This document shows positions 5,754 through 54,130 of a stretch of 64,000 bases of DNA, one piece after another. Within the stretch, counting starts at the first letter, position 1, and each line of letters starts with the position of its first letter. The stretch lies in assembly GCA_022340805.1 (NCBI GenBank), contig JAJDNF010000036.1, forward strand, positions 1 to 64,000. Reading direction: 5' to 3'. A model generated the notes under the pieces. The model saw nothing but the letters and a program-made list of their open reading frames with translations, was not told the origin of the DNA and did not search any database. Source of the DNA: Chromatiaceae bacterium (GTDB taxonomy: Bacteria > Pseudomonadota > Gammaproteobacteria > Chromatiales > Chromatiaceae). The translations under genes and the position numbers were made by a program.

Positions 5754-6983
5754 TCAGCCGTCGAGCTGCCCCAGGATGTTGCGCGCAACCTTGATCTGCT
5801 CGGCATTGCCCTCGCTGAGGATTTCGTAGAGCAGTCGGCGCGCCTCGCCATAGGCCTCGGTTGCACGCAGCGCAGCGACCTGCTCAAGTTTCGCCTCCAC
5901 CATCGCCTCGCTCGCCGAGCGTGCCGGGAAGTCTTCCTCGTCGAGCATGTCGGCGCTGTCCGCGGCGGTCCACCCGTCGGCATCCGGGGCGGCGTCCCGG
6001 GCGTCCTCGGCAGCACCGGCACTCGTCGCGTCCGCGTCGTCGTCCGACGCTGTGGACGCGCTGCCCGCATCTTTCGCGGACGACGCGTCGAGGGCCTCGA
6101 ACTCGGCCTCGATGCGCGCGAACTCGTCCTCCATCTCCTGCCCGTCGAGTGGCTTGAAATCACCGTTCGGCTGCCTGCCAGGGCCGGCCGCAGTCTGTAC
6201 CGCAGGCTCCCTGCCTGCGCCGGGCGCGGCATCGCCGGACTCGTCCGGGCGCCTTCGATCACGCATCAGGATGCGCGAGAAAAACAGCCCGACCTCGAAC
6301 AACAACCACATCGGCAGGGCCAACAGGGTCTGCGAGATCACGTCCGGTGGGGTCAGCAGCATACCCAGCACGAACGCGCCAACGATCACGTAGGGACGCT
6401 TCTCGGCCAGCGTCTCCGGCGTGGTGACACCCGCCATCACCAGCAGGATAGTGGCGATCGGCACCTCGAACGCCATGCCAAAGGCAAAGAACAGCCGGAT
6501 CGCTATATCCAGAAAGTCGGCGATGTCCGGCATCACCTTGACATCTTCCGGGGTCACTCCGACCAGGAACGGGAACAGCAGCGGCAGCACCACCAGGTAG
6601 GCAAAGGCCCCGCCGAGATAGAACAGCACGATGCTCGACACCAGCAGCGGGATCGCCAGCCGTTTCTCGTGCTGGTACAGGCCGGGCGCAATGAAGCTCC
6701 AAAGCTGATACAGGAGATACGGCATGGCGACGAATACCGCCGCCACGAAGGCGAGCTTCAACGGCGTGAGGAATGGCGACAGCACCTTGGTGGCCACCAT
6801 GGAGTTGCCTTCCGGCAGCGCGTTGATCACCGGTTGGGCGAGTACGTGAAAGATGTCGTTGCCGAACGGGAACAGCGCCAACAGCAACACCACTACCGCC
6901 AAAACCATGCGCATCAGGCGGTCGCGCAGTTCGATCAGATGGCTGATGAAGGGCTGCTCGGGCAGCGAGGCGTTGTCACTCAT
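5754..6983 (-). CDS. tatC: Sec-independent translocase TatC with long C-terminal extension
   Basis: A 409-residue protein. Residues 1-240 are a normal TatC: the conserved FISHLIELRDRL start, six membrane helices, and the signal-peptide receptor region for folded, twin-arginine substrates. Typical TatC ends near residue 250. Here an acidic Ala/Asp/Ser-rich linker follows (about 241-358), and then about 50 residues (VEAKLEQVAALRATEAYGE, RRLLYEILSEGN) that resemble the C-terminal helical domain of FimV. The start at 6983 gives the family N-terminus and overlaps the end of tatB by 8 bases. The operon order is tatA-tatB-tatC, then the secreted DUF255 gene. Confidence 0.95.
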   Translation of the reverse strand: MSDNASLPEQPFISHLIELRDRLMRMVLAVVVLLLALFPFGNDIFHVLAQPVINALPEGNSMVATKVLSPFLTPLKLAFVAAVFVAMPYLLYQLWSFIAPGLYQHEKRLAIPLLVSSIVLFYLGGAFAYLVVLPLLFPFLVGVTPEDVKVMPDIADFLDIAIRLFFAFGMAFEVPIATILLVMAGVTTPETLAEKRPYVIVGAFVLGMLLTPPDVISQTLLALPMWLLFEVGLFFSRILMRDRRRPDESGDAAPGAGREPAVQTAAGPGRQPNGDFKPLDGQEMEDEFARIEAEFEALDASSAKDAGSASTASDDDADATSAGAAEDARDAAPDADGWTAADSADMLDEEDFPARSASEAMVEAKLEQVAALRATEAYGEARRLLYEILSEGNAEQIKVARNILGQLDG

Positions 6984-7305
6984 GTCGGTCTTCGGGAGGC
7001 GGGGCAGGCTTCTTGTTCGCCCCAACCGCAGACGCGGTTTCGCTCTTGATCTCGTCGAAGCTCTTCTTGGTATCTTCGACGATCTCGTGCAGCGGATTGC
7101 TCTGCTTCTGCTTTGCGAGGATCTGGCGCAGTTCGTCGGCCTTCATCTCGCGATCGATGTCCGCTTTCACCGAGTTGATAAACTTTCGCCCGCGGCCGAC
7201 CCACATTCCGGCCGTGCGCGCGAGCTTGGGCAGACGTTCCGGCCCAACCACGAGCAAGGCCACGACACCGATCACTACCAGTTCGAGGAATCCGACGTCG
7301 AACAT
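6976..7305 (-). CDS. tatB: Sec-independent translocase TatB
   Basis: A 109-residue protein with the TatB layout: a short N-terminal membrane helix (FLELVVIGVVALLVVGPERL, about 6-25) with the family's Glu and Gly-Pro hinge, an amphipathic helix (LPKLARTAGMWVGRGRKF), and a charged cytoplasmic tail. It forms the substrate-receptor complex with TatC. It lies 24 bases after tatA and its end overlaps tatC. Confidence 0.95.
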   Translation of the reverse strand: MFDVGFLELVVIGVVALLVVGPERLPKLARTAGMWVGRGRKFINSVKADIDREMKADELRQILAKQKQSNPLHEIVEDTKKSFDEIKSETASAVGANKKPAPPPEDRHE

Positions 7306-7329: not shown

Positions 7330-7566
7330 TTATTGCTTGTCCTTTTCGCGCGTGGCCTCGCCATTGATGACCTTGTCATCGGCCTTTTCCAGGCGCTCCG
7401 GCGAACTGTCGGCGTTCTTCTCGTCGTCGCTCATGGCCTTCTTGAAGCCCTTGATCGCATTACCCAGGTCACCGCCCAGGTTGCGCAGGCGCTTGGTCCC
7501 AAACAGCAGCAGCACGATCACGAGAACGATTAGCAACTGCCAGATACTGATTCCACCAAAACCCAT
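7330..7566 (-). CDS. tatA: Sec-independent translocase TatA
   Basis: A 78-residue protein. The membrane helix ([20 protein letters not shown], about 6-25) ends at the [20 protein letters not shown] amphipathic segment, the TatA/E signature. It forms the pore-like oligomer of the Tat system. The ATG at 7566 gives the standard [10 protein letters not shown] start; the open frame upstream is not TatA-like. It is the first gene of tatABC, 140 bases after hisE, as in Pseudomonas where hisIE precedes tatABC. Confidence 0.95.
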
Positions 7567-7706
7567 GTCTATCTCCGCTGATGACCCACTCTGTCGATGG
7601 TGGGTTCGAAAACTCGCTGCATGATACCTCAAGGCCGCGGCAGTGTGCTGCGATCCGCAAAACAGGGCGGTGAGCGCACCACATGCAGCCGTTTCACGGT
7701 CGACCG

Positions 7707-11550: not shown

Positions 11551-11687
11551 CGGCGTCCCCATCTGCCGTTGTCGGCCAGTGGATTTTCCCATCCCGCTCA
11601 AGGAAATGCACTTGCGCACCGATGAACAGGGTAATATCTCGACTCTTTACGTGACGGGCATGTCGCCCGGCGACGGACTGCGGATTG

Positions 11688-13946
11688 ATGCAAGCGAACA
11701 CAAAAAAAATCCTCGCCGATTGGCAGGATGAAGTCACCCAGCAGCTGGTCCTGGGCTTCCGCCACCTGTTCGAATCCTCGAGCCAGGTGCTGCTCGAATT
11801 CGCCGATGCGGCCGAGAACAACCGTCTCCAGCGCCTGTTCTTCGACGCACAGCGCGAGTTCTACCTGAAGGAAGAGACCATCGTCGGTGAGTTCGAGCAC
11901 AACCTGCGCAACAGCCTGATGTCGTTTGCCAGCGGTCCGTCGAATACCAACAGGCTGGGCGCCGACACGCTGAGTCTCGTCGAGGTCGAGGACTATGAGC
12001 GCTCACTGGCCCTCGAGACCATCGCCACGCGCACCGTCGACAGGCAACTCGGCGAACTGCACGGTCTCGCGCAGCGACTCTCTGCGCTACTCGGCGGCCG
12101 CCCCATTCCGATCGATCAGGTGCCGGCCAACCCGCTGCAGATCATTCGCATATTCGACCCCGTCAGCCGCAAGCTGGAGGTCGAAAAAGAGGTCCGGCTG
12201 GTTTTTTACACCCTGTTCGACCGATACGTGATGAGTCACCTGGGCGAACTTTATGCCTCGTTCAACCGTCGCCTGATCGACCTTGGCATCCTGCCCAACA
12301 TCAAGTTCGAATATCAGCGCTTCGGCGTGGACTCAGGAGGCACTGCACCACCGGCGGGCCGCGCGCCCGGCCCCGCTGCAGCAAGCGCGCCGCCCGCCGG
12401 TGAGGACACAGTCGCCGCGGAGGGCTATGCGGACGAATCCGGTGCGCTTCCGCGCCTGCGCCCGACAACACCGAGCTCAGCGGAGACCCTGTCGGCGATC
12501 AGTTCGCTGCTGATGGCCAAGCGCCAGCATCAACGCCCGGCTCAGTCCCTGCACACCTCGGTGCCGATCACGCCGAGCGCCGCCAACGTGGGGGAGGCAA
12601 TCGCCGATATCCGCGTGCTGCAGGAGGCCCCGCATCCCATACCAATACCGACTGGACCGGTCAGCGCCAAGGTGGTTGCGATCGACGCATCGCTGCTGCT
12701 GAAGGTCAAGAACGCGCTCGAGAAGCAGCGCCAGGTCATCAAGAGCCTGGTGGGCAAGGACAAACTCGATCGCCACGAAGAAGATGTCATCGACATCGTC
12801 GGTATGCTCTTCGAGGCGATGCTGAACGAAAAGCTGTTGCCCAACTCGGTCAAGACACTGCTGAGCCATCTGCACACCCGCTACCTGAAGATCGCGGTGC
12901 AGAGCCAGGACTTTCTCGAGAACACCAACCACCCGGCGCGCAGGCTGTTCGAGCGCATGCTCGATGCCGGTATCCGCTGGGTCCGCGAAGACAATCTGCG
13001 CGCCGGCATCTACCCACAGCTACAGGAAACCGTCACCCGGATACTGCGCCAGGAGTCCCTCGACGACAGCTTTTTCGTCGGCCTGATCGAGGACCTCGAC
13101 AAGGCGGAAAAGAAGCTCGAACAACAGTCCAATGCCGCCGAGGAACGCACGCTCGAGGCCGAGCGCGGACGTGCGCGCCTCGAGCAGGCCAAGGCGATCG
13201 TCAAACAGACCATCGACGATATTGGCGGAGATATCGAAGTGGCTCCGGCAGTCGTCACCTTTCTGACCACGACCTACGCCGACTACCTAACGCTGCTGCT
13301 GCTGCGCAGCGACCTCGACATCGAGTCGACCACCTGGAGCAATGCCTACAGTGTCGGCGAGGCACTGGTTGCAGCCGCCGTCTACGCGGCCAAGGGTCAA
13401 CCGCTCGGCAAGCCGATGCGCGACGACCTGACCAAGCGTCTGGAGACTACCGTGGGCAGCCTGATCCCGCACCACGAACAGAACATCCGCCGCGTCATTG
13501 ACGCGCTGGACCAGGCTCCAGAAAAGCCCGCCACAGCCACTGGCGAACCGGCAAGACCTGCGAAGCAGACAGTGCCGCCCACGCCGGTGCCAGCCCCGGC
13601 CAAGACCCGCGAAAGTCCGAAGGAGGAAGCGCAGGCGCCGGTCACAGAAGATGACCAGCATGTCGCCGAAAAACTGATGCGCGAAGCCGGCAACTGGTTC
13701 GTGATGCAGGCTGAGGAAGGCAAAAAGGGCGAACAGGCCGTGAAACTGCTTTGGGTTAACCCGCATACACGCAACATGCTGTTCGTCGATCAGCACGGCG
13801 CAAAGGTGGCACTGATGCCGGCCACCACGGTGGCGCGCAAGATTCGGGAAGGCAAGGTCCGACCCATGCAGCAGGAGACCTCGAGCTTCGTGGCCAGGTC
13901 GCTGCGCCGCATACGACGCGCGCTCGAAGATTCCGTCAATGTCTGA
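11688..13946 (+). CDS. DUF1631 family protein
   Basis: A 752-residue cytoplasmic protein of the DUF1631 family, sometimes mislabelled thymidine phosphorylase. It is mostly helical (LGFRHLFESSSQVLLEFADA at the N-terminus, FFDAQREFYLKEETIVGEFE next), with a disordered Pro/Ala linker (about 222-300), a coiled coil (about 460-515, rich in Glu/Lys/Arg), another Pro/Lys linker (about 620-660) and a C-terminal domain of about 90 residues (WFVMQAEEGKKGEQAVKLLW) like those in other DUF1631 proteins. I prefer the ATG at 11688 over the TTG directly before it. A PilZ gene follows by 18 bases, which suggests cyclic-di-GMP signalling. Biochemical role unknown. Confidence 0.85.
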   Translation: MQANTKKILADWQDEVTQQLVLGFRHLFESSSQVLLEFADAAENNRLQRLFFDAQREFYLKEETIVGEFEHNLRNSLMSFASGPSNTNRLGADTLSLVEVEDYERSLALETIATRTVDRQLGELHGLAQRLSALLGGRPIPIDQVPANPLQIIRIFDPVSRKLEVEKEVRLVFYTLFDRYVMSHLGELYASFNRRLIDLGILPNIKFEYQRFGVDSGGTAPPAGRAPGPAAASAPPAGEDTVAAEGYADESGALPRLRPTTPSSAETLSAISSLLMAKRQHQRPAQSLHTSVPITPSAANVGEAIADIRVLQEAPHPIPIPTGPVSAKVVAIDASLLLKVKNALEKQRQVIKSLVGKDKLDRHEEDVIDIVGMLFEAMLNEKLLPNSVKTLLSHLHTRYLKIAVQSQDFLENTNHPARRLFERMLDAGIRWVREDNLRAGIYPQLQETVTRILRQESLDDSFFVGLIEDLDKAEKKLEQQSNAAEERTLEAERGRARLEQAKAIVKQTIDDIGGDIEVAPAVVTFLTTTYADYLTLLLLRSDLDIESTTWSNAYSVGEALVAAAVYAAKGQPLGKPMRDDLTKRLETTVGSLIPHHEQNIRRVIDALDQAPEKPATATGEPARPAKQTVPPTPVPAPAKTRESPKEEAQAPVTEDDQHVAEKLMREAGNWFVMQAEEGKKGEQAVKLLWVNPHTRNMLFVDQHGAKVALMPATTVARKIREGKVRPMQQETSSFVARSLRRIRRALEDSVNV

Positions 13947-13964
13947 TCTCGACAAGGGGTAATT

Positions 13965-14309
13965 GTGGACGACCGCCGCAAGAGCAACCGAATAGACGCG
14001 CACGATGTGGGTTTGCGCGTCCGCAACGGCATCGACAAGGAGCCGCTCGGAGTCATCGGCAACCTGTCGCTGGGTGGGATGATGCTGATTACCACGCAGC
14101 AGTTGTTTACCGATGGAATTCTGCAGCTGCGCATCGACCCCCCGGCCGGATACGAGAGTGGGCCGATTTCGTTGGGCGTCAAGGTCCTCTGGTGCATCCC
14201 CGCAAACAGCCCGGACGAATACTGGGCGGGGCTCGAGACCATCGACATCAACCCCGCCGACCAGGAGGCCTTGTCGCTGTTGCTCGATTACCTGGCCGAA
14301 ACCAGCTAA
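13965..14309 (+). CDS. PilZ domain protein (cyclic-di-GMP receptor)
   Basis: A 114-residue single-domain PilZ protein. Both ligand motifs are present: the Arg motif at the N-terminus (DRRKSNRIDA) and N-L-S-L-G-G at about 29-34, fitting D/N-x-S-x-x-G. Hydrophobic strands follow (LGVKVLWCIP, EYWAGLETID). It uses a GTG start with AAGGGG just upstream. It is probably co-transcribed with the DUF1631 gene, and the GGDEF-EAL gene lies about 600 bases downstream. The output partner is unknown. Confidence 0.92.
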   Translation: MDDRRKSNRIDAHDVGLRVRNGIDKEPLGVIGNLSLGGMMLITTQQLFTDGILQLRIDPPAGYESGPISLGVKVLWCIPANSPDEYWAGLETIDINPADQEALSLLLDYLAETS

Positions 14310-43261: not shown

Positions 43262-43717
43262 TCAGGGGGCCGGGAGCTGCGCCTGCAGGTAGTCGATGTC
43301 GGGCACCATCAGTTCCTCACCCGCAACCGACAAAGTCATCCGCACCGGCGACTCGCCATGCGTCCCGCTATGCGCCGACTCGACGGCCTCGCGATTGACG
43401 CGCAATAGGCGCGGAATTCCCTGCGCCACGAGCCCCAGCAACGGCCAGCCCCGTTCCGGGTCTAGCGCGTAGCAGACCGCGATGCGCTGCCGGATGCCGG
43501 CACCAATGTCCGGACGCCCCAGCATGCGTTCGAAATCAATCACCAGGATATCGCGCTGGTGCCAGTTCACCCTACCCTTCAGCCAGGTCGGGGCATCGGC
43601 GACCGGGTCGGGTTCACGGTAACCGATAATCTCGGCGACCGTGGCGTTGGGCAGCAGCAGGCGACCCTCACGCATCGGGATCAACATACAGCGGATTTCG
43701 CTATCGATCCGCCTCAC
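43262..43717 (-). CDS. chpC: ChpC-like CheW domain protein
   Basis: A 151-residue single CheW-like domain (MREGRLLLPNATVAEIIGYR, LKGRVNWHQRDILVIDFERM). It should link the receptor array to the kinase ChpA. It overlaps the chpA stop by 4 bases (GTGA), so it is translationally coupled. In Pseudomonas chpC follows chpB; here it follows chpA directly. Confidence 0.87.
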   Translation of the reverse strand: MRRIDSEIRCMLIPMREGRLLLPNATVAEIIGYREPDPVADAPTWLKGRVNWHQRDILVIDFERMLGRPDIGAGIRQRIAVCYALDPERGWPLLGLVAQGIPRLLRVNREAVESAHSGTHGESPVRMTLSVAGEELMVPDIDYLQAQLPAP

Positions 43718-46700
43718 AGCGCCGCATCCGCGAGCACTGTATAGATGTTTTCGAGAAGCTCGGCCTCCTGGTAGGGCTTGCCGAGGTAACGCTTGACACC
43801 CAGTTCGAGCGCGCGGTTACGGTGTTTGTCGCCGGTCCGCGAGGTGATCATGATGATCGGGATATCTTTGAGTTCAGGCGTGCTGCGCATATGCCGCGCC
43901 AGCTCGTAGCCGTCCATACGCGGCATCTCGATGTCCAGCAGCATCACGTCCGGGCGCTGCTCCTGCAACAAGGTCACCGCGTCTACACCGTCCTTTGCGG
44001 TCACCACGTGCATGTTGTGGCGCTCCAGCAGGCGACTGGTAACCTTGCGAACGGTGATCGAATCGTCGACCACCATTACCGACACACCCTTGCTCATTGG
44101 GGCGACAGACTCTAGCTTGGCCGTCGGCTGCTGTGTACTGTCGATGCGGACCAGGCTGTTAGTGTCCAGGATCAGTGCTATCTGGCCATCTGCCAGGATG
44201 GTGCCACCGGTGAACCAACGCACCGTACTCAACTGCGCACCGATCGATTTGACGACGATCTGCCGGTTACCGAGCAGACCGTCCACCTGGATGGCCACCC
44301 GGTGCTCGCCCGAGCGCACCAGCAGCAGCGGCAGCCAGCGAACGCCATCAGTGAGATGCGGGGCCTGGCTGCCCAGCATGCTGCCGAGGTAGCGTACGCT
44401 GTAATTGCGTCCACCATACTGAAAGCCTTCCTGCTCACCGGCGTAGATGGCGCGCAACTCTTCGGTCGCGATGCGCACCACCCCGTCCATGCTGCTGTGC
44501 GGCACGGCGAAGATCTCCTCGCCAACTGTGACCAGCAATGCATCGGTGATCGCCAGCGTGAACGGCAGGCGGATGGTGAAACTCGTGCCGCGCCCCGGCT
44601 GGGAGTCGATCTCCAGCGTGCCGCCGAGTTGCTTGACCTCGGTCAGCACCACGTCCATCCCGACACCGCGACCGGATACCTGTGACAGCTCCTGCGCAGT
44701 CGAGAATCCGGGCTGCATTATGACTTGGTACAGGTCGTCGTCCTCGATCGCGGCGTCGGCGTCGATCAGGCCGCGTTCCACGGCCTTGGCGCGGATGCGC
44801 GCACGGTCCAAGCCAGCGCCGTCATCCGAGAGGGTGAGCACGACATCGGTTCCCTCTCGGGCCAGCTGCAGCGTGATCAGGCCCTCAGGCCGCTTACCGT
44901 TGGCAAGGCGGGCATTGGCATCCTCGATGCCGTGCGATACCGCGTTTCTGAGCAGGTGCTCGAGCGGGCTCATCATGCGCTCGAGGATCGCGCGGTCCAT
45001 GTCTTCCTCGCCGCCGATCACTTCCAGATTCGCCTGTTTGCCGACGCTGTGGCTGGTCTGGCGCACGACGCGTTCGAGGCGCGGGACGCGGCTGGAAAAC
45101 TTGACCATGCGGGTGCGCAGCAGGCTGTCCTGCAGGTCGGTGGTCACGCGTGCCTGCTGCAGCAGCAGCGTGTCCGTGTCGCGGCTCAGATCGTTCAGCG
45201 ACTGGCCGAGGTTTGACAGGTCTTCGACGGTCTCGGACAGCGCACGTGACAGCTGCTGAATCGCCGAATAGCGATCCATTTCCAACGGGTCGAAATCGGC
45301 CCGCGCCTCACCCTCACGCTCATGCCGCGACAGGATCTGGGCCTCGGTCTCGAGTTCGAGGCCGCGCAGCTGGCTGCGCAGGCGATCGATAGTCTGGCGC
45401 AACTCACCGAGGTTGAACGCAAAGCTGTTGTTCTGCTGCTCGATACGTGCCCGATAGATACTGACCTCGCCGGCATTGTTGACCATATGGTCGAGGGCCT
45501 CGGAGGCGACACGCACCCGCTCGCTGCCAGTGATCGGGGCCGGCGGTTCTTCGGGGATCGGCCGGCGCGGTACGAAGCCTTCGCCCTCCAGGATCTGCTC
45601 ACCACTTGGAAACTGCACGATGCTCGACTCTTCGTGAACCACGGCACCGAGCGCCGCCTGCTCACCATCCGCCGCACCCTCGATCATGAAGCTGGAATCG
45701 CCGAGCAGTTCCGAGTCGGTCATCAACTGCGAGTCGGTAAGCAATTCGGAATCGTCGTCCAGATCTTCATCGGACGGAAACTCAGACGTCACCGCCTGCT
45801 CGGGCGGAGCCATCGCGGGCTCTCGATCGATCGCCGGGGGCTGCGGTTCCATGGCCGTCTCGTCGGCCGCGACGTCCTGCCAATCCCGGCCGTGCGCAGC
45901 ATTTTCCAGGCGTTCGATCATGATCTGATGCGCGGCTGGCATGTCACCGCCGATCAATCGGTCGATGTCCTGGGCCAAGGTGTCGGTTGCGTGCCTCACG
46001 AGCTGCTTGAGGCGTCCATTTCCTTCGAGACGTTGCTCGACCACGCTCTCCAACACCGACTCGAGCGCATGACTGAGATCACCGACCGGTGCCACCCCGG
46101 CCAGGCGCGCCCCACCCTTCATGGTGTGCAGGGTGCGCTGCAGCTTCGCAACAGGCCGCCGATCATCGACAGCCACTTCCCAATCGGCCAGCTCCTTCTC
46201 TAAGGCCTCGAGCAGTTCCTTGGCCTCGTCGAGGAAGACCTCGAGCAATTCCTGATCGAACACCTCCAGCGACTGCGCCTCACCGCCCGTCCGTGCCTGC
46301 TGTTCGGGGTGTGCAATTCGACCCACCCAACCGGCGACCTCATCGCGCAGCGGCTCCCAATCCGGCACCTCGAGATGCGGATCCTCCACCGAGGCCAACA
46401 ACGCCGACAGCAACTGGTGGCTGCGGCCGAGCAGGTCTAGGGTGCCGGCATCGGCACGCCGATGCTGGCCATACATGACGTTGCCAAGCTCCTCGAGCGC
46501 CTCTGCAAGCTCGGCCATCGGCGCCATGCCAGCTGCACGCGAACTGCCACGCAGCGTGTGCATGGCACGCCGCACATCGTCGTCGAACTCGATACCGTCA
46601 TGGCGCGCAGCACTGCGTGCGATGAAATCTGCGATTACGTTGAGGTGGCCGAGCGCCTCGTTGATGAATACCGCGTTCAGGCTCGAATCGGCCGCGGTCA

Positions 46701-49611
46701 TCGAGGGCGATTCGAACTCGCTGAATTCGGAATCCTGCACCTCGGCTGCCGTCAGGATCGACTCGTCCGCCGTGTCCTGCTCGACGCTGCCCGGATTCGC
46801 CACCTCTTCGACTGCCGCGCTAGCCTCTGTAAAGGTCCCTGCCCCGGCCCGCGGCTCGACAGCCTCTGCCGGCCATTCCAGCACAACCGCTTCGGCGCCC
46901 TGCGCGGCCTTTTCGAAGACCTCCTCGCCATTGTTGCCGTCGAACTGTTCCGAGGATTCGGTGGCCGGCTCCAGAACGATTTCAGCTGGTGCGGCCAATT
47001 CCGGCTGGGGCGCCTCGACCGCGACCTGTTCGGCAAGCGCGGGGGGCTCCTCGAGCACAGGTTCCTGTTCAACGGGGACCGCGGGCGGAATCAGCTCTGC
47101 ACTTGCCGCTTCTTCGGCCTGCGGTTGAGCGGGTGCTGCCTCGGCCGGCACCTCGACATCCGCCAACTGGGCCGGCTCGGATTCAGCGAGTTGCGACTCG
47201 AGATGCCCCGGCTCGACGGGTTCGGGCTTAGCCGCGACAGACTCGGGCACCGCGGACGGTTGCGCCGCAGCCGTCCCGGAGGCCAGCGCAAAGGCCTGCT
47301 CGGACAGCGCCGACACATCGGTGCCGGGTTGCCCGGGCTGCGCACTCTCATCGACCAGCGCCGGCAGCACAGCGACCGCCCCGTCCATCAGTCCGAGTAC
47401 CGCTGGTGACGCGGCAATGGTGCCGTCGATGACCCGGTTCAGCAGGTTCTCGACCGACCATGCGAACTCGCCGATGTTGTGCGCACGGACGATCCTGCCG
47501 CTGCCCTTGAGGGTGTGGAAAGATCGGCGCATGGTCAGCAGCGCATCGCGGTCCTGCAGGGCTTCGCGCCAGCGCGGATAGCAGTCCTGAATTACCTGCA
47601 GTTCCTCGCGCGCCTCCTCATTGAAGATCTCGAGGATCTCGGGGTCGATCTCTTCGGCCTGCGCGCTTTCGACGACGGCTGGCGGCGCAGAGTCTGCCGC
47701 GCTCTGGCCGATCGGCTGCTCCGCTGCCGAATCGCTTGGCATTGCCGGCTGCGCGACCTCGGCTACCGGCGGCAACGGATGCTGGTCTGCCCCGATTTCG
47801 GCCTCTGCCCACGACGGTTCTTCAGCGACCGGCGCCTCCTCGGCCATGGCCTGCTGTCCGGCCTCTGCCGGCACGGTTTGCTCGACCGTCGGCGGGGCGG
47901 ACTGCTCGCCCTCCGCGTGGTGCAGCCCGAGCCGGCACAGTGCCGCCTCGGCGTAGCTGAACAGCTTGGACCGGTCACTGCCCGGTTCGATTGCCGACTG
48001 CATGTACAGCTCGGCACTGATCACCACGTCAGCCAGCGCATCGCGCTGATCGGCGTCGGGCACCGGCATCTGACCGCTTGCCAGCCCGGCGATGTATGGT
48101 TTCAACTCGTTCAATAGACGACCGGCCTCGGGCAGCTCCAGCATCTGCAGCACACCGGCAACCATGTGCAGGCGCGCGGGAACCTCGTTGAGGAGTTCCG
48201 GATGGGTGGGCTTGTCCAGGTACTCGAGCATCGAGTCCTTGATCTTGGCCAACTCGACCAGAGCCTCGTCGACCGCCGCCCGCACGTGCTGCTGCATCTC
48301 GCCATACGACAGCGACTGAGAGACGACCCCTTCCATCGGCTCGTCGAAATCGACCAGGAGGTCACTGTCCGAGCCAAGGCTGGTCAAAGATGACTCCACG
48401 AACAACAGATCCGAGGCCAGGGCCATCAGGCGCTCGTCACTGAGCGGCGTGCCAGACTTCTCCGCCTCGCGCAGGGCCTCGCAACGATGCTTCAGGCGGG
48501 TGCGCAGCTCGCCGCGCCCCACCATCCCGAGGGTATCGCCGATGCGCTGAATCGGTTGCGCGAGACCCGTGAGGCGGCCAAGCTGGCTGCGGTCACTACG
48601 GATATACAGGTCGAGCTGGTCCTTCACATCGCGCAGATCCTGTGCCAAGGCCTCACCCACGGCATCGAAGAGCTCGCGATCCGGCGCACCGAGGGATCCG
48701 AGCGCAGTTCCTTCCGCCTGCTGCTCGGGAAAGGTGTTGACCAGATCGGCGGCACGTTTGACCGCCACTACCGCAGGGTCAGTCGAATCTGAGCGCGCAA
48801 TGTAATACAGCATGTTCTTCAGCAGATCGACCGGGAAATCGAGCATGGCCGACTCCTCACCCTGATCGATCACCTGCTTGAACACGCGGTCGAGTTTGCC
48901 GAACAGCGGCTTGACCGCAAGCGCCGGAGCTTCCTTGTCGTCGGTCAGCACCACGGCCAGAGCCTCGGCGGCATCCAGCAGGCGACGCAAGCGGGCTGTC
49001 CCCGCTGCACTGTTGAGCACGTCCAGTACGTCGCGGATCTGGCCCAGCGAGTCCGGCACGTCCTGGCCGCGTATCCAGCTCAACAGGCTACGATGATAAC
49101 GACTACGCTGCACGTGTATGAGATGCGGCAGCTCGCGGTTGCCGGATCCTGGACGCACCGTCTCCGCAGCGATTACCGCGTTCAGCTTGGGGGCAAACAG
49201 CGAGGTCTCGGAGACCAGCGGGGCCTCGCGTGCAGCGCGCAGGTCGTTCATCAGCGGAAGCAAGACCAGCGGGACATCGGCGCCACCACCCTCGATCTTC
49301 TCCAGATAGGCGGGCAGTTGCACCATGCCGAGCATCAATGCCTCGGCCGCCGGCTCGATGCGCTTGGCCTGCCCCTGCGAGAGTGCGAGCGCCAGCTGTT
49401 CCATCTCGTCGGCCAGCATCGCCGCGCCATAGACCTGGACCATCTCCAGTGCCCCATGCACGTGGTGAAGCAGGTCGACACACTGATCCAGCCGTGACGG
49501 CTGACCCTCGGCGAAATCCTCCAGCGAGGTGCGGGCCTCGCGCAGGGTCTGATCCAGTTCGCCGCGGATCCAACGGAGTGCGCTTCGGTCCTGTCGCAGT
49601 TCTGGGAGCAT
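43714..49611 (-). CDS. chpA: Hybrid chemosensory kinase ChpA (type IV pili)
   Basis: A 1965-residue CheA-type hybrid kinase. An N-terminal FimL-like helical part (about 1-560) precedes three HPt domains with His at about 699 (SFHTLKGSGR), 1018 (AMHTLRGSSR) and 1162 (TLHTMKGGAR). They are separated by Ala/Pro/Glu-rich linkers (about 560-650 and 770-960). Then come the CheA dimer and ATPase domain (about 1365-1690, HLLRNAVSHGIED and GRGVGMDVV), a CheW domain (about 1690-1825) and a receiver (about 1842-1960, Asp near 1892). Pseudomonas ChpA has more transfer domains (eight). It controls pilus motility with PilG and PilH as outputs. Confidence 0.95.
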   Translation of the reverse strand: MLPELRQDRSALRWIRGELDQTLREARTSLEDFAEGQPSRLDQCVDLLHHVHGALEMVQVYGAAMLADEMEQLALALSQGQAKRIEPAAEALMLGMVQLPAYLEKIEGGGADVPLVLLPLMNDLRAAREAPLVSETSLFAPKLNAVIAAETVRPGSGNRELPHLIHVQRSRYHRSLLSWIRGQDVPDSLGQIRDVLDVLNSAAGTARLRRLLDAAEALAVVLTDDKEAPALAVKPLFGKLDRVFKQVIDQGEESAMLDFPVDLLKNMLYYIARSDSTDPAVVAVKRAADLVNTFPEQQAEGTALGSLGAPDRELFDAVGEALAQDLRDVKDQLDLYIRSDRSQLGRLTGLAQPIQRIGDTLGMVGRGELRTRLKHRCEALREAEKSGTPLSDERLMALASDLLFVESSLTSLGSDSDLLVDFDEPMEGVVSQSLSYGEMQQHVRAAVDEALVELAKIKDSMLEYLDKPTHPELLNEVPARLHMVAGVLQMLELPEAGRLLNELKPYIAGLASGQMPVPDADQRDALADVVISAELYMQSAIEPGSDRSKLFSYAEAALCRLGLHHAEGEQSAPPTVEQTVPAEAGQQAMAEEAPVAEEPSWAEAEIGADQHPLPPVAEVAQPAMPSDSAAEQPIGQSAADSAPPAVVESAQAEEIDPEILEIFNEEAREELQVIQDCYPRWREALQDRDALLTMRRSFHTLKGSGRIVRAHNIGEFAWSVENLLNRVIDGTIAASPAVLGLMDGAVAVLPALVDESAQPGQPGTDVSALSEQAFALASGTAAAQPSAVPESVAAKPEPVEPGHLESQLAESEPAQLADVEVPAEAAPAQPQAEEAASAELIPPAVPVEQEPVLEEPPALAEQVAVEAPQPELAAPAEIVLEPATESSEQFDGNNGEEVFEKAAQGAEAVVLEWPAEAVEPRAGAGTFTEASAAVEEVANPGSVEQDTADESILTAAEVQDSEFSEFESPSMTAADSSLNAVFINEALGHLNVIADFIARSAARHDGIEFDDDVRRAMHTLRGSSRAAGMAPMAELAEALEELGNVMYGQHRRADAGTLDLLGRSHQLLSALLASVEDPHLEVPDWEPLRDEVAGWVGRIAHPEQQARTGGEAQSLEVFDQELLEVFLDEAKELLEALEKELADWEVAVDDRRPVAKLQRTLHTMKGGARLAGVAPVGDLSHALESVLESVVEQRLEGNGRLKQLVRHATDTLAQDIDRLIGGDMPAAHQIMIERLENAAHGRDWQDVAADETAMEPQPPAIDREPAMAPPEQAVTSEFPSDEDLDDDSELLTDSQLMTDSELLGDSSFMIEGAADGEQAALGAVVHEESSIVQFPSGEQILEGEGFVPRRPIPEEPPAPITGSERVRVASEALDHMVNNAGEVSIYRARIEQQNNSFAFNLGELRQTIDRLRSQLRGLELETEAQILSRHEREGEARADFDPLEMDRYSAIQQLSRALSETVEDLSNLGQSLNDLSRDTDTLLLQQARVTTDLQDSLLRTRMVKFSSRVPRLERVVRQTSHSVGKQANLEVIGGEEDMDRAILERMMSPLEHLLRNAVSHGIEDANARLANGKRPEGLITLQLAREGTDVVLTLSDDGAGLDRARIRAKAVERGLIDADAAIEDDDLYQVIMQPGFSTAQELSQVSGRGVGMDVVLTEVKQLGGTLEIDSQPGRGTSFTIRLPFTLAITDALLVTVGEEIFAVPHSSMDGVVRIATEELRAIYAGEQEGFQYGGRNYSVRYLGSMLGSQAPHLTDGVRWLPLLLVRSGEHRVAIQVDGLLGNRQIVVKSIGAQLSTVRWFTGGTILADGQIALILDTNSLVRIDSTQQPTAKLESVAPMSKGVSVMVVDDSITVRKVTSRLLERHNMHVVTAKDGVDAVTLLQEQRPDVMLLDIEMPRMDGYELARHMRSTPELKDIPIIMITSRTGDKHRNRALELGVKRYLGKPYQEAELLENIYTVLADAAL

Positions 49612-49628
49612 GCGGGTGTCGTCCTTTC

Positions 49629-51683
49629 TCAGCCAACCATTGCGTCGTCATCCGGCAGCTTGAAGCGCGCCACCGTCTGGCGCAGCTGCTCGGCCATCTT
49701 TGCAAGAGTCTCAATCGATTGAGTCGTCTGCTCGGTGCCCTCGGAGGTCTGGCTGGTGATCTCCTGGATGATGTTCATCGTGTCGTTGATCGAGCCCACC
49801 TCTTGCGACTGCTGCTGCAGCCGCGAGGCGATCGCCTGCGTGACCGTGGCGATGTCCTGTGAGACCTGCTCGATTCTCTGCAGGGCCTCGCCGGCGTCCT
49901 CGGCCAGCTGAGCACCACTCACCACCTCGGAGGTGCTCGATTCCATCGAGCTGACTGCCTCGTTGGTATCGGCTTGAATCGTCTTGACCAACGCATCAAT
50001 CTGCTTGGTCGCATTCGCCGAGCGCTCGGCGAGCCGCTGAACCTCGTCGGCCACCACGGCGAAACCACGCCCGGCCTCACCCGCCATTGCCGCCTGCATG
50101 GCCGCATTCAGCGCGAGGATATTGGTCTGGTCAGCAATGTCCTCGATCAGTTCGACGATGTTGCCGATCTCCTGCGAGCTCTCGCCCAGGCGCTTGATCC
50201 GCTTCGAGGTCTCCTGGATCTGCTCGCGGATATTGTCCATGCCCGAGATCGTACGCCGCACCGTGGCGCCTCCGGCCGCCGCAATGTCCACTGATTGCTG
50301 TGCGATGGCGGCCGAATTGTTCGATTCCTCGGCCATCTCGCTCATCGCCTGGGCCATCGTACGCACCGTATCAGAGGCCTTCTCGATCTGGTTCCGCTGG
50401 TGGTCAGAGGCCTCTTCGAGACGCAACGCGGTACCCCTGGTCTCCTGAGCCGATGCGGATACGCGCACCGAGGTCTCGTTGATCGTCGTGACCAGGCTGC
50501 GCATCTCCTCCACAGCCTGGTTCACCGAGTCGGCGATCGCTCCGGTGATGTCCTCGGTAACGGTCGCCTCGATGGTCAGGTCTCCGTCGGAGAGGTCGAC
50601 CATCTCGTCGAGCAGGCGGCGGATAGCGGCCTGGTTGCGCAGGTTCTGCTGATCAGACTGCTGGGCCCGTGCCCGAGCCTCGCGCAGCAAGGCGAGTCCG
50701 AGCAGCAGCAGGAACACGGTGGCCAGCAGGCCAAGCACCGTCACCAGCGCGGGGCCGACCGAAACCGGCCCGATCTTTGCCAGGTAGCGATCACTGCTGT
50801 AGGCCTCGGCCAGCGCTGAGGTGGCCGTGTCGAGCGCATCAGAGGTGGGCGTGACCTCGCCGGTTGCTTCGAGCGCAGGTAGAATATTGGGTGCGGTCTC
50901 GATAATCTCGGCGACGTGATCGTTTATCGAGCGGAACAACTTGGCCGCCTCGGCGAGCTTCGCCTCGGCCTCTTGGTTGTCGATGCGTTCGACGTTGAGG
51001 CCGGTATCGCCGGTCAACATGCCATTCAGCACGCGACCGAAACGCTCAGTATCCTGACTGAACTGGTCGATCGCGGCCGCCGTCTCGGCACCGCCGCCGA
51101 GGACACGACTGACGTTGTCGCGCAAACGCTGCGCAAGCATGAGCTGGCGCGAGGCCACGTACACCTGCTGCTGGTCGGCCTTGGAACCGACCAGGATGCG
51201 CACGACGTCCTCCGACACCTTCTGCAACCCCGGTATGGTGTTGTTGATCACCTCGACGAATTCGCGAATCGACAGGATAGCGTTCTGGTTGAGCAGGATC
51301 TCATCGACGTAGGCGCGCAGGGCCAGCCAGCGGTTCTCCACTTCATGCAGAGGCTGCGCGACGGCCTCTGGCGAGGCCGGCAGGCCGGCCTGCGGCGCGC
51401 CGTTCTTAAGTTCATCCATCAGCGTGATGAATCGGTCCCTGGTCTGACGCAAGCGTCCGAACGATGTCTGACTGCCGGCCGATGCCTCGAGGGCATATTT
51501 AGCGATCTTCTGGCCGAGCACCTGCTGTTCGGACACTCGCACGAGGTACTGCTCGCCGTGCCCCTCGATTCGCGACACGTAGGCGAACGCGGCGATGGCC
51601 CCGACGATCGTGATCAACAGCAGCCCGGTAAGCAGGGGTATCGTGCGGTTGCCTTCTGTAGTCTTCTTGACCGTACTCTTCAT
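49629..51683 (-). CDS. pilJ: Pilus chemoreceptor PilJ
   Basis: A 684-residue receptor. Membrane segments at about 17-36 ([20 protein letters not shown]) and near 318-338 ([20 protein letters not shown]) bracket the type IV pili-type sensor region (PilJ-like helical pair, with [18 protein letters not shown]). HAMP and a signalling coil follow, with tip [20 protein letters not shown] and [18 protein letters not shown]. It is one of the core parts of the Pil-Chp pathway and lies 17 bases before chpA, where pilK is found in Pseudomonas. Confidence 0.95.
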
Positions 51684-51949
51684 AAATCGTTTCCTGAGAC
51701 AGTTAGCACGACCTTAGCGGAACTCTGGATCGACGGACGTTTCTGGCGGAACGTCGAGACGACTCCGGCAGCCGCCGCAACAGCTGGTCGGTACAATTGT
51801 GGACTGAGCGCATCGCCATCGGATCCGAACGAGCGGGGAACGTCTTGACAAGCGGTGTCAGCACTTCCCTGCAGACTCCGCTGAATGGCAGCTCCATATG
51901 TCCGAATCATTTTTGCCCCTTGCCCAATCGACTTTGCATGCCGACTCAC
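51680..51949 (-). CDS. Small frame between pilI and pilJ (doubtful)
   Basis: An 89-codon frame that fills the pilI-pilJ gap. Its GTG overlaps the pilI stop by 4 bases and its TGA overlaps the pilJ ATG by 4 bases, the pattern of translational coupling at both ends. The product ([20 protein letters not shown] at the front) has no recognised domain. Its third-base composition is close to even, far less GC-rich than the neighbours, which argues against coding. It could be a decayed gene or chance. Confidence 0.3.
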
Positions 51950-52506
51950 CCGGCCGCGGATCGAAATTCAGGATCCGCCGCCAGGGCATGCATGCTCAAC
52001 ACCGGCCACACACCCCCGTCGACGCTGAATGCCTCGTACACATATGCGCCGAGCACACCTTTCATTCGGGCATTCGGCAGGCGCTGCTTCAAACTGAAGT
52101 GGCGCATGCCCTGAACCGACGGAACCAACAGACCCACCACCAGTCCGCGCAGCCGCAACACAAGGATGCGGCTCGCCTTGGAAGGCACCACGGCCTTGGC
52201 GCCGAGAAAAACCTGCAGGTCGATCACCGGCAGCAGACTGCTGCGAACGTTGGCCAGACCAAGCATCCAGGCCTTCGAACCGGGCACGCGCGTGATCCGA
52301 TCCTGATACGGGAGCATCTCACTCACCTCACTCATAGCCGCGGTCACGCGCACGCCGGCAACACTGAATACGAGGCCATTCCAGATATCCGTCACCGGAG
52401 CAGATTCCGGCAGGCGCTTGGCCGCCTCCCGGCTGCGCTGCTCGATATCGCTCAGCACACCGAGCACATCAACAGCCGACAGGGTATCTTCTAAGAGTTG
52501 CAGCAT
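51946..52506 (-). CDS. pilI: Chemotaxis coupling protein PilI
   Basis: A 186-residue CheW-type adaptor: a helical front (LLEDTLSAVDVLGVLSDIEQ), then FSVAGVRVTAAMSEVSEMLP, VPGSKAWMLGLANVRSSLLP and VIDLQVFLG. It couples PilJ to ChpA. The ATG at 52506 gives MLQLLEDTL; the longer upstream frame lies in pilH. It is 5 bases after the pilH stop. Confidence 0.93.
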   Translation of the reverse strand: MLQLLEDTLSAVDVLGVLSDIEQRSREAAKRLPESAPVTDIWNGLVFSVAGVRVTAAMSEVSEMLPYQDRITRVPGSKAWMLGLANVRSSLLPVIDLQVFLGAKAVVPSKASRILVLRLRGLVVGLLVPSVQGMRHFSLKQRLPNARMKGVLGAYVYEAFSVDGGVWPVLSMHALAADPEFRSAAG

Positions 52507-52511
52507 AGCGT

Positions 52512-52874
52512 TCAGGTAAGCAGTTCTTTCAGTGTCGAGAGCAGTTCGCGACCATCCACTGGTTTGACCAGATAGCCTTTCGCGCCCTGCCGCAAGCCCC
52601 ACTCCCGGTCAGTCTCCTGGTCCTTGGTGGTCACCATCAGTACCGGGATGTGCCGGGTCTTCGGATCACGACTCAATTTGCGCGTGGCCTGAAACCCGTT
52701 GATCCCGGGCATTACTACGTCCATCAGTATCGCATCGGGCGACTGCGCCTTAGCGGCCGCGATACCTGCCTCCCCATCCGAGGCAGTCAGCGCCTCATGA
52801 CCGCCCTGTTGAAGGATCTTTGCCAACACATGCAGTTCGGTGGGCGAATCGTCGACGATCAGAATCTTGGCCAT
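52512..52874 (-). CDS. pilH: Twitching motility response regulator PilH
   Basis: A 120-residue stand-alone receiver. Acidic pocket ILIVDDSPTE, phospho-acceptor in AILMDVVMPGINGFQATRKL, the switch MVTTKDQETDREWGLRQGA and the Lys of YLVKPVDG. It counters PilG in pilus control, by homology with retraction. It lies 36 bases after pilG and 5 before pilI. Confidence 0.95.
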   Translation of the reverse strand: MAKILIVDDSPTELHVLAKILQQGGHEALTASDGEAGIAAAKAQSPDAILMDVVMPGINGFQATRKLSRDPKTRHIPVLMVTTKDQETDREWGLRQGAKGYLVKPVDGRELLSTLKELLT

Positions 52875-52910
52875 TTGTCTCGTTTATTCCAGTCAGCGGA
52901 TCCGCGAAGA

Positions 52911-53312
52911 TCAGGCGGCTCGAGCCGCGTGCTTCTTAATCGCGCCAAGGAGTTCGTCGCGCGTAAACGGCTTGGTCAGGTACTGCTCCGAGCCGACGAT
53001 CCGGCCGCGCGCCCGATCGAACAGGCCATCCTTGCTCGACAGCATGATCACCGGGATATCCCGGTACAGTTCGTTGTGCTTGATCAAGGCGCAGGTCTGG
53101 TAGCCATCGAGGCGCGGCATCATGATGTCGACGAAAATTAGATCGGGATGGTTGTCGGCAATGATCGACAGCGCCTCAAACCCATCCGTAGCGGTCAGAA
53201 CCTCGCACCCTGCCTTGGTCAGCAAAGTCTCGGCGGTGCGACGAATCGTCTTGCTGTCGTCGATCACCATGACCTTCAGTCCACCGATATTAACTGCGTC
53301 ATCACTGCTCAC
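52911..53312 (-). CDS. pilG: Twitching motility response regulator PilG
   Basis: A 133-residue stand-alone receiver, near PilG length. It has LKVMVIDDSKTIRRTAETLL, phospho-acceptor in IFVDIMMPRLDGYQTCALIK, PVIMLSSKDGLFDRARGRIV and YLTKPFTRDELLGAIKKH. The frame is open to 53387, but the GTG at 53312 follows an AGAGGGG ribosome site and gives the family length. PilG promotes pilus extension and cAMP signalling in Pseudomonas. It is the first gene of the Pil-Chp run. Confidence 0.95.
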   Translation of the reverse strand: MSSDDAVNIGGLKVMVIDDSKTIRRTAETLLTKAGCEVLTATDGFEALSIIADNHPDLIFVDIMMPRLDGYQTCALIKHNELYRDIPVIMLSSKDGLFDRARGRIVGSEQYLTKPFTRDELLGAIKKHAARAA

Positions 53313-53344
53313 ACGCTGCCCCTCTGTATACTGAATCGCTTGAG

Positions 53345-54130
53345 TCACTGGCGTGGCACCACCGTGGTCAGCCCCCAGAGCTGCCACATCTGCATGCCAC
53401 CCCGGTAATACTTGATTTTCTCGCTTGGATATCCCAGGTTAGCCAGGCTCCGAATGGCGCGCGGCGACTGCCCACAGGAAGGCCCATTGCACCACAACAC
53501 CAGGTCCTTCGCCGCGGTAAAATCCCACAGGTCGGTCTTGTTGCTGGTATCGGCCCAACCCCAGTCCTCGAGGAGTCCCTCGATCGCCCCAATCTCGCCG
53601 CGTTCCTTGGCCCCCAGGATTTTAAGCAACGCCACCAGTTCCGGGTCGTTCCGGTCTTTGCCGAACAGGGTGAAAGGATAGTTCACTGATCCAGGAATCG
53701 TACCCTTGCGGTGCCAGGACTCAGTGCGCGCGTCGATCAGCACCCCGCTGCCATCGCGCAACTTGGTTTCCATGAAGTCGAACATCTCGACCTCACCGAT
53801 GACCGCGACACCGGGCACAGGGACGATCGGCTGGATGCAAAACGGCGGGCACTTGCGCGCGGTTTTGGCAAAATACCCTTTGAGCTCGTAGTCCGGATCC
53901 TGGACGCGCTGGACTTTTACCGAGCGACCTTCATGGATGACGTGCAGGAAAGGTTTACCCTCGACCAGCGGGATAAAATCCGTGGTCTCTCCAACCCTTA
54001 CCTCATCCGCTGCATGGCTCGCACCGAGCGAAAGAAAGGCTATGCCGGCGATCCATCCGATGCGCCGCGCAGAGCGCACCGGAAACCTTTGAGCAAGGCG
54101 ACGGACTACAGCAATAATGTTCCAAATCAC
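53345..54130 (-). CDS. Secreted rhodanese-domain protein
   Basis: A 261-residue exported protein. A signal peptide (about 20-41, IGWIAGIAFLSLGASHAADE) is followed by a linker with a Cys pair (ARKCPPFCIQPIVPVPGV) and a rhodanese domain (about 110-258) with VLIDARTESWHRKGTIPGSV and the active loop VLWCNGPSCGQSPRAIRSL, where Cys is the expected sulfur carrier. Periplasmic rhodaneses of this kind are common in sulfur-oxidising bacteria. It begins inside the stop of the small gene upstream (GTGA overlap), so they form a pair. Confidence 0.87.
   Translation of the reverse strand: MIWNIIAVVRRLAQRFPVRSARRIGWIAGIAFLSLGASHAADEVRVGETTDFIPLVEGKPFLHVIHEGRSVKVQRVQDPDYELKGYFAKTARKCPPFCIQPIVPVPGVAVIGEVEMFDFMETKLRDGSGVLIDARTESWHRKGTIPGSVNYPFTLFGKDRNDPELVALLKILGAKERGEIGAIEGLLEDWGWADTSNKTDLWDFTAAKDLVLWCNGPSCGQSPRAIRSLANLGYPSEKIKYYRGGMQMWQLWGLTTVVPRQ

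Follow-up and report, generated by a model that had tools for sequence, protein, structure and literature searches.

The TatC of a gammaproteobacterial family carries a FimV-type domain at its C-terminus

The tatC locus and the translocase core

Accounts of the Tat pathway generally present TatC as a minimal subunit that is much the same everywhere; it has six transmembrane helices, and its N- and C-termini both lie in the cytoplasm. The window, the whole 64,000-nucleotide stretch of a Chromatiaceae contig that was analysed, encodes a TatC that is considerably longer. Its tatC is a single minus-strand frame (6983..5754) of 409 residues and a stop codon, the protein starting MSDNASLPEQPF and ending NILGQLDG; the earlier note on this DNA had placed the open reading frame at 5754-6983 without naming a strand, and it is found there on the minus strand. 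The gene stands last in the order hisB-hisH-hisA-hisF-hisE-tatA-tatB-tatC, the his names having been read from the ORFs. The features of the locus are as follows.

7330..7566, minus strand: tatA, 78 residues counted from the likely ATG, with a Pfam TatA_B_E match in 7330-7590
6976..7305, minus strand: tatB, 109 residues, Pfam TatA_B_E
5754..6983, minus strand: tatC, 409 residues and stop, ATG at 6983, overlapping the end of tatB by 8 bases
6264..6983, minus strand: TatC translocase core, residues 1-240, with Pfam TatC at 14-224 and E106 and D214 invariant
6156..6263, minus strand: first part of a predicted acidic disordered linker, residues 241-276, modelled with low confidence at 249-275 and fast-evolving
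6069..6152, minus strand: conserved acidic linker helix, residues 278-305, family motif PLTDEEMEAELD, predicted as helix at 281-305 with pLDDT ~88
5901..6068, minus strand: second part of the predicted acidic disordered linker, residues 306-361, pLDDT mostly <50
5760..5900, minus strand: FimV-type three-helix domain, residues 362-408, assigned from TIGR03504, hhalign, PDB 4MAL/4MBQ, AlphaFold2, Foldseek and VIA

Judged by profile coverage, the TatC core of this protein is complete. PF00902 aligns over its whole length (model positions 1-208 of 208) with residues 14-224 (E 8.5e-69, 231.9 bits against a cut-off of 25.1), TIGR00945 with residues 13-229 (226.7 bits, cut-off 132.7), and the E. coli-type model PRK10921 with residues 9-252. 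E106 (in GLYQHEKR) and D214 (in TPPD) are invariant in an alignment of 23 sequences; we take them, E106 being the first cytoplasmic-loop glutamate, to be among the conserved residues of the TatC signal-peptide site. The limits of the Pfam, TIGR00945 and PRK10921 models put the beginning of the extension at about residues 240-253, in agreement with the earlier suggestion that everything from about 241 onwards is extra to TatC.

When the neighbourhoods of 27 loci were compared using the window genes as queries, no constant extra partner was found beside tatC; a downstream gene that we label DUF255-type adjoins it in some members only. In several purple sulfur bacteria (L042, L044, L045, L046, L048 and L057), tatA and tatB were not found between hisE and tatC, and TatA/B-type genes lie elsewhere in these genomes. 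At 11685-14309 on the plus strand of the window are a 753-residue protein, DUF1631-like by reading, and then a small ORF that reads as PilZ-like, a pair that adjoins the his-tat genes and is divergent from them.

Identity of the C-terminal domain

The last 50 or so residues had been noted as resembling the C-terminal domain of FimV, and this resemblance is borne out by several kinds of profile comparison. Using hmmscan, TIGR03504 (FimV_Cterm) aligned over all 44 of its positions (1-44/44) with the last ~45 residues, scoring 19.6 bits (E 6.9e-4) when the whole protein was searched and 24.3 bits (E 2.4e-5) for the tail alone. In both searches the window tail falls under the curated cut-off of the family (30.65 bits), which counts against reading it as a docking domain of the FimV type. 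The TatC place is over that cut-off in 17 of 53 genomes of the window's family, reaching 47.5 bits (G042), three of the 17 exceeding it only together with their neighbours in frame. All 44 distinct TatC tails, chosen by a C-terminal motif pattern that was not seen to drop any tailed ORF, are matched by TIGR03504 (E<=1, best 4.4e-11); of the other NCBIfam families, the next one matches 10 of the 44, at best with E 0.0027.

With a profile built from 26 FimV C-termini, the median score of the 44 tails was 23.5 bits, the window tail obtaining 18.5 and the lowest, L022, 9.9. A control set of 4,400 composition-shuffled tails yielded 3,288 scores, the best of them 12.6 bits, so that the L022 tail scores below the best shuffle, a second point against the docking-domain reading. 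In a comparison of profile with profile, hhalign aligned the tail and FimV profiles over 51 gapless columns with a probability of 97.9%, E 3.5e-13 and a score of 60.9, the highest score among 200 column-permuted profiles being 18.4. Against the sequences of the PDB, the tail profile had a single significant match, FimV of P. aeruginosa (4MAL/4MBQ, E 4.2e-8), followed by a match at E 0.02. The FimV match came from the alignment alone, as the single window tail found nothing in the PDB sequences at E <0.07, and no Pfam model matched it. In the reciprocal search, the TatC-tail profile recovered TatC tails first (E <1e-22), and FimV-type domains followed from E 4e-11 onwards.

Together, these profile results identify the tail domain as a homologue of the C-terminal TPR ("FimV") domain of FimV/HubP. 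Two other explanations of the similarity were considered and rejected. A chance resemblance of a charged, helical tail is ruled out by the shuffles, the column-permuted profiles, the PDB sequences and the reciprocal search; a general TPR, rather than FimV, is ruled out by the distance to the next NCBIfam family (10/44, best E 0.0027) and to the next PDB match (E 0.02).

Structure prediction describes a compatible fold. AlphaFold2 modelled the 60-residue tail (23 sequences) with a mean pLDDT of 90.7 and helices at 8-25, 29-42 and 45-59, and the same three helices appear in the full-length TatC model with pLDDT ~95, behind a largely disordered linker. The six best Foldseek matches to the 60-residue model are all FimV TPR3 chains (E 0.036-0.15, probability 1.00), five of them at an rmsd of 2.6 Å or less and none at E<=0.001. 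VIA-align placed 4MAL at Z 10.4 (rmsd 4.4 over 59 residues) and 4MBQ at Z 10.1 (rmsd 0.4 over 49 residues), with other helical proteins close behind (Z 8.9 and below); a VIA Z below ~13 can be common for helical bundles, and small helical domains easily obtain middling structural scores. The tail is thus modelled as the three-helix TPR3 fold of FimV, and since other helical proteins follow so closely in the structure search, its identity as FimV is not decided by the fold alone.

Distribution and conservation of the tail

A TatC match was obtained in 53 of 58 sampled genomes of the window's GTDB family, and the tail accompanies all 53 of these TatCs, which represent 46 genera. It lies in TatC's own open frame in 51 of the 53, and on another contig in G009 and G049, the two contig ends of the split tatC of G049 overlapping in sequence. 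The five genomes without a TatC match (G001, G013, G017, G021 and G032) are each in at least 160 contigs, and no family genome has a second TatC core at E<=0.001. Named carriers include Thiocystis violacea, Thiorhodococcus, Allochromatium warmingii, Chromatium weissei, Sedimenticola and Candidatus Thiosymbion.

Outside the family, no FimV-type domain was found on any TatC among the matches listed or opened. Of 35 non-family genomes, 28 have a TatC, and none shows a FimV_Cterm match at TatC among the matches listed (to ~E 6e-4). The tail profile matched 241 of 369 genomes of the class; among the matches listed (to ~E 1.2e-6), those with E <1e-22 are exclusively family tails (from G000, G015, G016 and G049), and after them, from 4e-11 on, every match that was opened is another protein. 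At 28 non-family loci from the class and phylum searches (L155-L180, L205 and L206) the matched frame contains no TatC core, and ten further short non-family frames comprise nine that are FimV-like or fragmentary and one other small membrane protein (L188). Across 398 genomes of the phylum, the window's own match was joined at E<=1e-9 by two others, neither of which has a TatC core. The FimV-type tail on TatC is therefore, as far as sampled, a feature shared by one family.

This breadth also disposes of the suggestion that the tail arose by a frame accident or is a local artefact, as it is with 53 of 53 family TatCs and is conserved as protein. The earlier note had named two findings that would speak against its proposal, the lack of a FimV_Cterm profile match and the absence of the tail from close relatives; a match is present, and no tail-less TatC was found in the family.

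The small membrane protein of L188 (84-677, minus strand), from genome G371 outside the family, has 197 residues, hydrophobic segments and a FimV-type domain at its end; it is not FimV and has no Pfam match at E 1e-4. In the light of this case, the FimV-type domain may have moved more than once.

Within the genus of the window, mean amino acid identity is 0.78 for the core, 0.74 for the FimV-type domain, 0.59 for the linker helix and 0.38 for the rest of the linker, and mean dN rises in the same order (0.148, 0.197, 0.289 and 0.649). Synonymous differences are high (pS 0.55-0.66) and no dN/dS ratios are therefore given. Linker, domain and core keep the same order of divergence in two other groups. 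The FimV-type domain is thus conserved nearly like the TatC core, while the linker outside its helix evolves freely. That the tail is an ordinary appendage for stability, or an evolutionary relic with no specific partner, is very improbable: acidic C-terminal extensions without the domain do occur on TatCs of other families, which speaks for it, yet here the domain is held almost as tightly as the core beside a freely changing linker, and no loss of the tail is seen among the 53 family TatCs.

Divergence from the FimV domain

The residues that distinguish the TatC domain from that of FimV were read against 60 FimV-type domains that a profile search with no motif filter had located in all 60 loci; 44 of them fit the helix-1 pattern used earlier. 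The 26 FimV C-termini mentioned above had been picked from 31 loci by a pattern holding much of the helix-1 signature, which makes signature counts in that set partly circular. Tails and FimV have core positions in common, among them L366, A381, R382, L385, G392, Q396, A400 and L404. Nine helix-1 residues of FimV (T364, D367, L368, A369, A371, M375, G376, D377 and G380) are kept at 86-100% across the 60 domains, and no residue of this signature reaches 50% in the 44 tails, G376 standing at 38% and A371 at 31%. Conversely, R373, Y386, V399, N402 and I403 are near-invariant in the tails (at least 95%) and variable or different in FimV, Q406 is present in 90% of tails versus 51% of FimV domains, and R401 in 88% versus 26%. 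The net charge of the 44-residue domain has a median of 0 (-4 to 3) in the tails versus -6 (-9 to -3) in the 60 FimV-type domains. The TatC tails show neither the FimV helix-1 signature (TKLDLA.AY..MGD) nor its acidic charge.

Two studies count the FimV domain among the main domains with which HubP/FimV binds its clients (PMC12918733, PMC9061725), the second reporting that PdeB docks on a negative surface of the FimV domain. DgcP (PMC7033161) and FlhF (PMC11236974) are likewise reported to interact with the cytoplasmic or C-terminal part of FimV/HubP. Because the signature and the acidic charge are gone from the TatC domain, which has near-invariant residues of its own, and PdeB uses the negative surface of FimV, the TatC domain probably binds something other than FimV's partners; its exposed residues are read from the alignment register rather than from coordinates.

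The acidic linker and a possible role within the translocase

The stretch that joins core and domain (241-362) contains 32 acidic residues (20 D, 12 E) and 11 basic ones (9 R, 2 K). A match of the linker to MSCRAMM_ClfA (E 0.21) was taken as low complexity. The linker-helix motif pattern occurs in 41 of 52 tailed TatC ORFs and in 14 of 59 other TatC ORFs; two of the 14 (L021 and L058) are contig-cut copies of the tailed G049 gene, and the other 12 include Thioalkalivibrio. A PLTDEEMDAELD-like acidic helix motif was seen in the C-terminal extensions of domain-less TatCs at L079, L093, L095, L061, L062, L064, L074, L075, L090 and others. Since the motif is also found on TatCs without the FimV-type domain, the acidic helix may have preceded that domain, and the tail may comprise two modules, perhaps of two ages.

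The FimV-type domain could instead serve TatC itself, the tail binding TatB or TatA, the cytoplasmic face of TatC or another tail, and so tuning oligomerisation or signal-peptide access. Such a role is unlikely, although it would sit well with the presence of the tail on the only TatC found per genome and with the separate conservation of the acidic linker helix, also on some TatCs lacking the domain, and a neutral domain with conserved arginines could conceivably meet acidic segments. Against it, the domain is missing from those non-family TatCs that were examined, several members keep the tail with a tatC that does not adjoin tatA and tatB, and the AlphaFold2 model of the full-length single chain (pTM 0.51) gives no contact evidence.

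FimV, pili and flagella

A further possibility, which takes up the earlier note's suggestion of a tether to a cytoplasmic or polar partner, is that the Tat translocase is brought to the cell pole by its tail, which would either bind FimV/HubP or compete for FimV's clients. In its favour, 56 of 58 family genomes have a listed FimV_Cterm match in a protein other than TatC, and the conserved arginines of the neutral TatC domain might allow it to pair with an acidic FimV domain. The acidic disordered region and FimV-type domain of TatC together resemble the cytoplasmic half of FimV/HubP, as outlined in PMC12918733, and TatC-mCherry gathers at the poles of E. coli in the presence of substrate according to PMC3732296. 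The same source weighs in the other direction, however, as E. coli TatC, whose model has 258 positions and no tail, reaches the poles anyway. The helix-1 signature and acidic charge are also gone, while PdeB is reported to dock on a negative surface of FimV (PMC9061725). In addition, the tail is kept in eleven genomes that are at least 98% complete and lack FlhF over the cut-off. Polar placement by the tail is thus quite unlikely.

FlhF is found over its cut-off in 60 of 96 family genomes, and the eleven tailed, near-complete genomes without it (G010, G014, G016, G023, G029, G031, G043, G046, G047, G049 and G051) rule out polar flagella as a requirement for the tail. A PilT-family match is present in 95 of 96 family genomes; FimV_Cterm outside TatC (56/58) and PilT are both near-universal, and their presence therefore carries no information on a tether.

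The earlier note had also pointed to a Pil-Chp system in this genome, and it was right to do so: a cluster of that type lies inside the window (53387..43714, minus strand). Its presence is no evidence of a link to the TatC tail. The cluster (43714-53387) encodes two response regulators, a CheW protein, a PilJ-type MCP and a 1965-residue kinase with Hpt, HATPase, CheW and receiver domains. A separate FimV-like protein is encoded in the window's genome at a locus read as asd-fimV-truA (L119). A second, of 712 residues, is found on contig C48 of the same genome (L120:2608-4746, minus strand) with a FimV_Cterm score of 42.1 bits, over the cut-off; each of the eight other genomes of the genus has matches like it, in frames of 593-757 codons.

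Proposed role

On balance, the reading we favour, by a modest degree, is that the sole TatC found per genome bears a TPR docking domain of the FimV type, attached in the cytoplasm by a long acidic tether, and captures a dedicated partner. As both ends of TatC are cytoplasmic, the domain would lie in the cytoplasm, hanging on its ~120-residue tether under the TatBC receptor complex. There it would capture one dedicated, putative cytoplasmic partner through a face that is absent from FimV (R373, Y386, V399, R401, N402 and Q406), bringing partner and translocase together as HubP/FimV does for its clients. Since eleven tailed genomes of at least 98% completeness lack FlhF over the cut-off, the partner should not depend on polar flagella, and it would be expected throughout the family rather than as a flagellar part. 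Put more strongly, the tail would be a landmark-type receptor built into the family's sole TatC, a repurposed HubP/FimV domain with a new face that couples Tat to a dedicated cytoplasmic partner; this fuller version is put forward tentatively, as a possibility more doubtful than probable.

No description of a TatC-FimV fusion was found in the open-access papers searched. TatC and FimV_Cterm are both known families, and it is their fixed combination on the TatC of a whole family that appears undescribed there. The findings suggest a transfer of the docking domain of FimV/HubP to a different machine, on which it acquired a new face. If the fuller version is true, a partner system with no known counterpart in other Tat pathways would position or gate the export of folded proteins. 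Whether Tat export has a set place in the cell has been argued from tagged E. coli proteins. With a protein-docking domain fixed on the only TatC found throughout a family that includes purple sulfur bacteria, some of them cultured, partner capture by the translocase becomes directly testable.

Comparison with known systems

Canonical TatC of the E. coli type (PRK10921/TIGR00945/PF00902) has the same complete translocase core as the window protein, and TatCs outside the family share its his-tatABC gene order, whereas the window TatC has ~155 extra residues with a FimV-type domain at their end. Closer in form are the TatCs of Thioalkalivibrio (L079, L093 and L095) and Halothiobacillus (L080 and L100), which likewise carry a long acidic C-terminal extension, in Thioalkalivibrio also with the PLTDDEMDAELD helix motif; unlike the window TatC, these extensions end without a FimV-type domain. 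The channelrhodopsin KnChR, annotated in PMC7902849 with a peptidoglycan-binding FimV region at residues 410-690, is by this annotation, like the window TatC, a membrane protein with a FimV region in its C-terminal part.

The nearest relative of the tail is FimV/HubP itself (TIGR03504; P. aeruginosa FimV TPR3, 4MAL/4MBQ), which has, like the TatC tail, a three-helix, TPR-type cytoplasmic C-terminal domain. In both proteins the domain follows an acidic disordered stretch and is anchored to the inner membrane, by TatC in the window protein and, in FimV/HubP, by a single transmembrane helix accompanied by a periplasmic LysM domain. The TatC tail differs from the FimV domain in lacking the helix-1 signature and the acidic charge, and in having near-invariant residues of its own, R373, Y386, V399 and N402.
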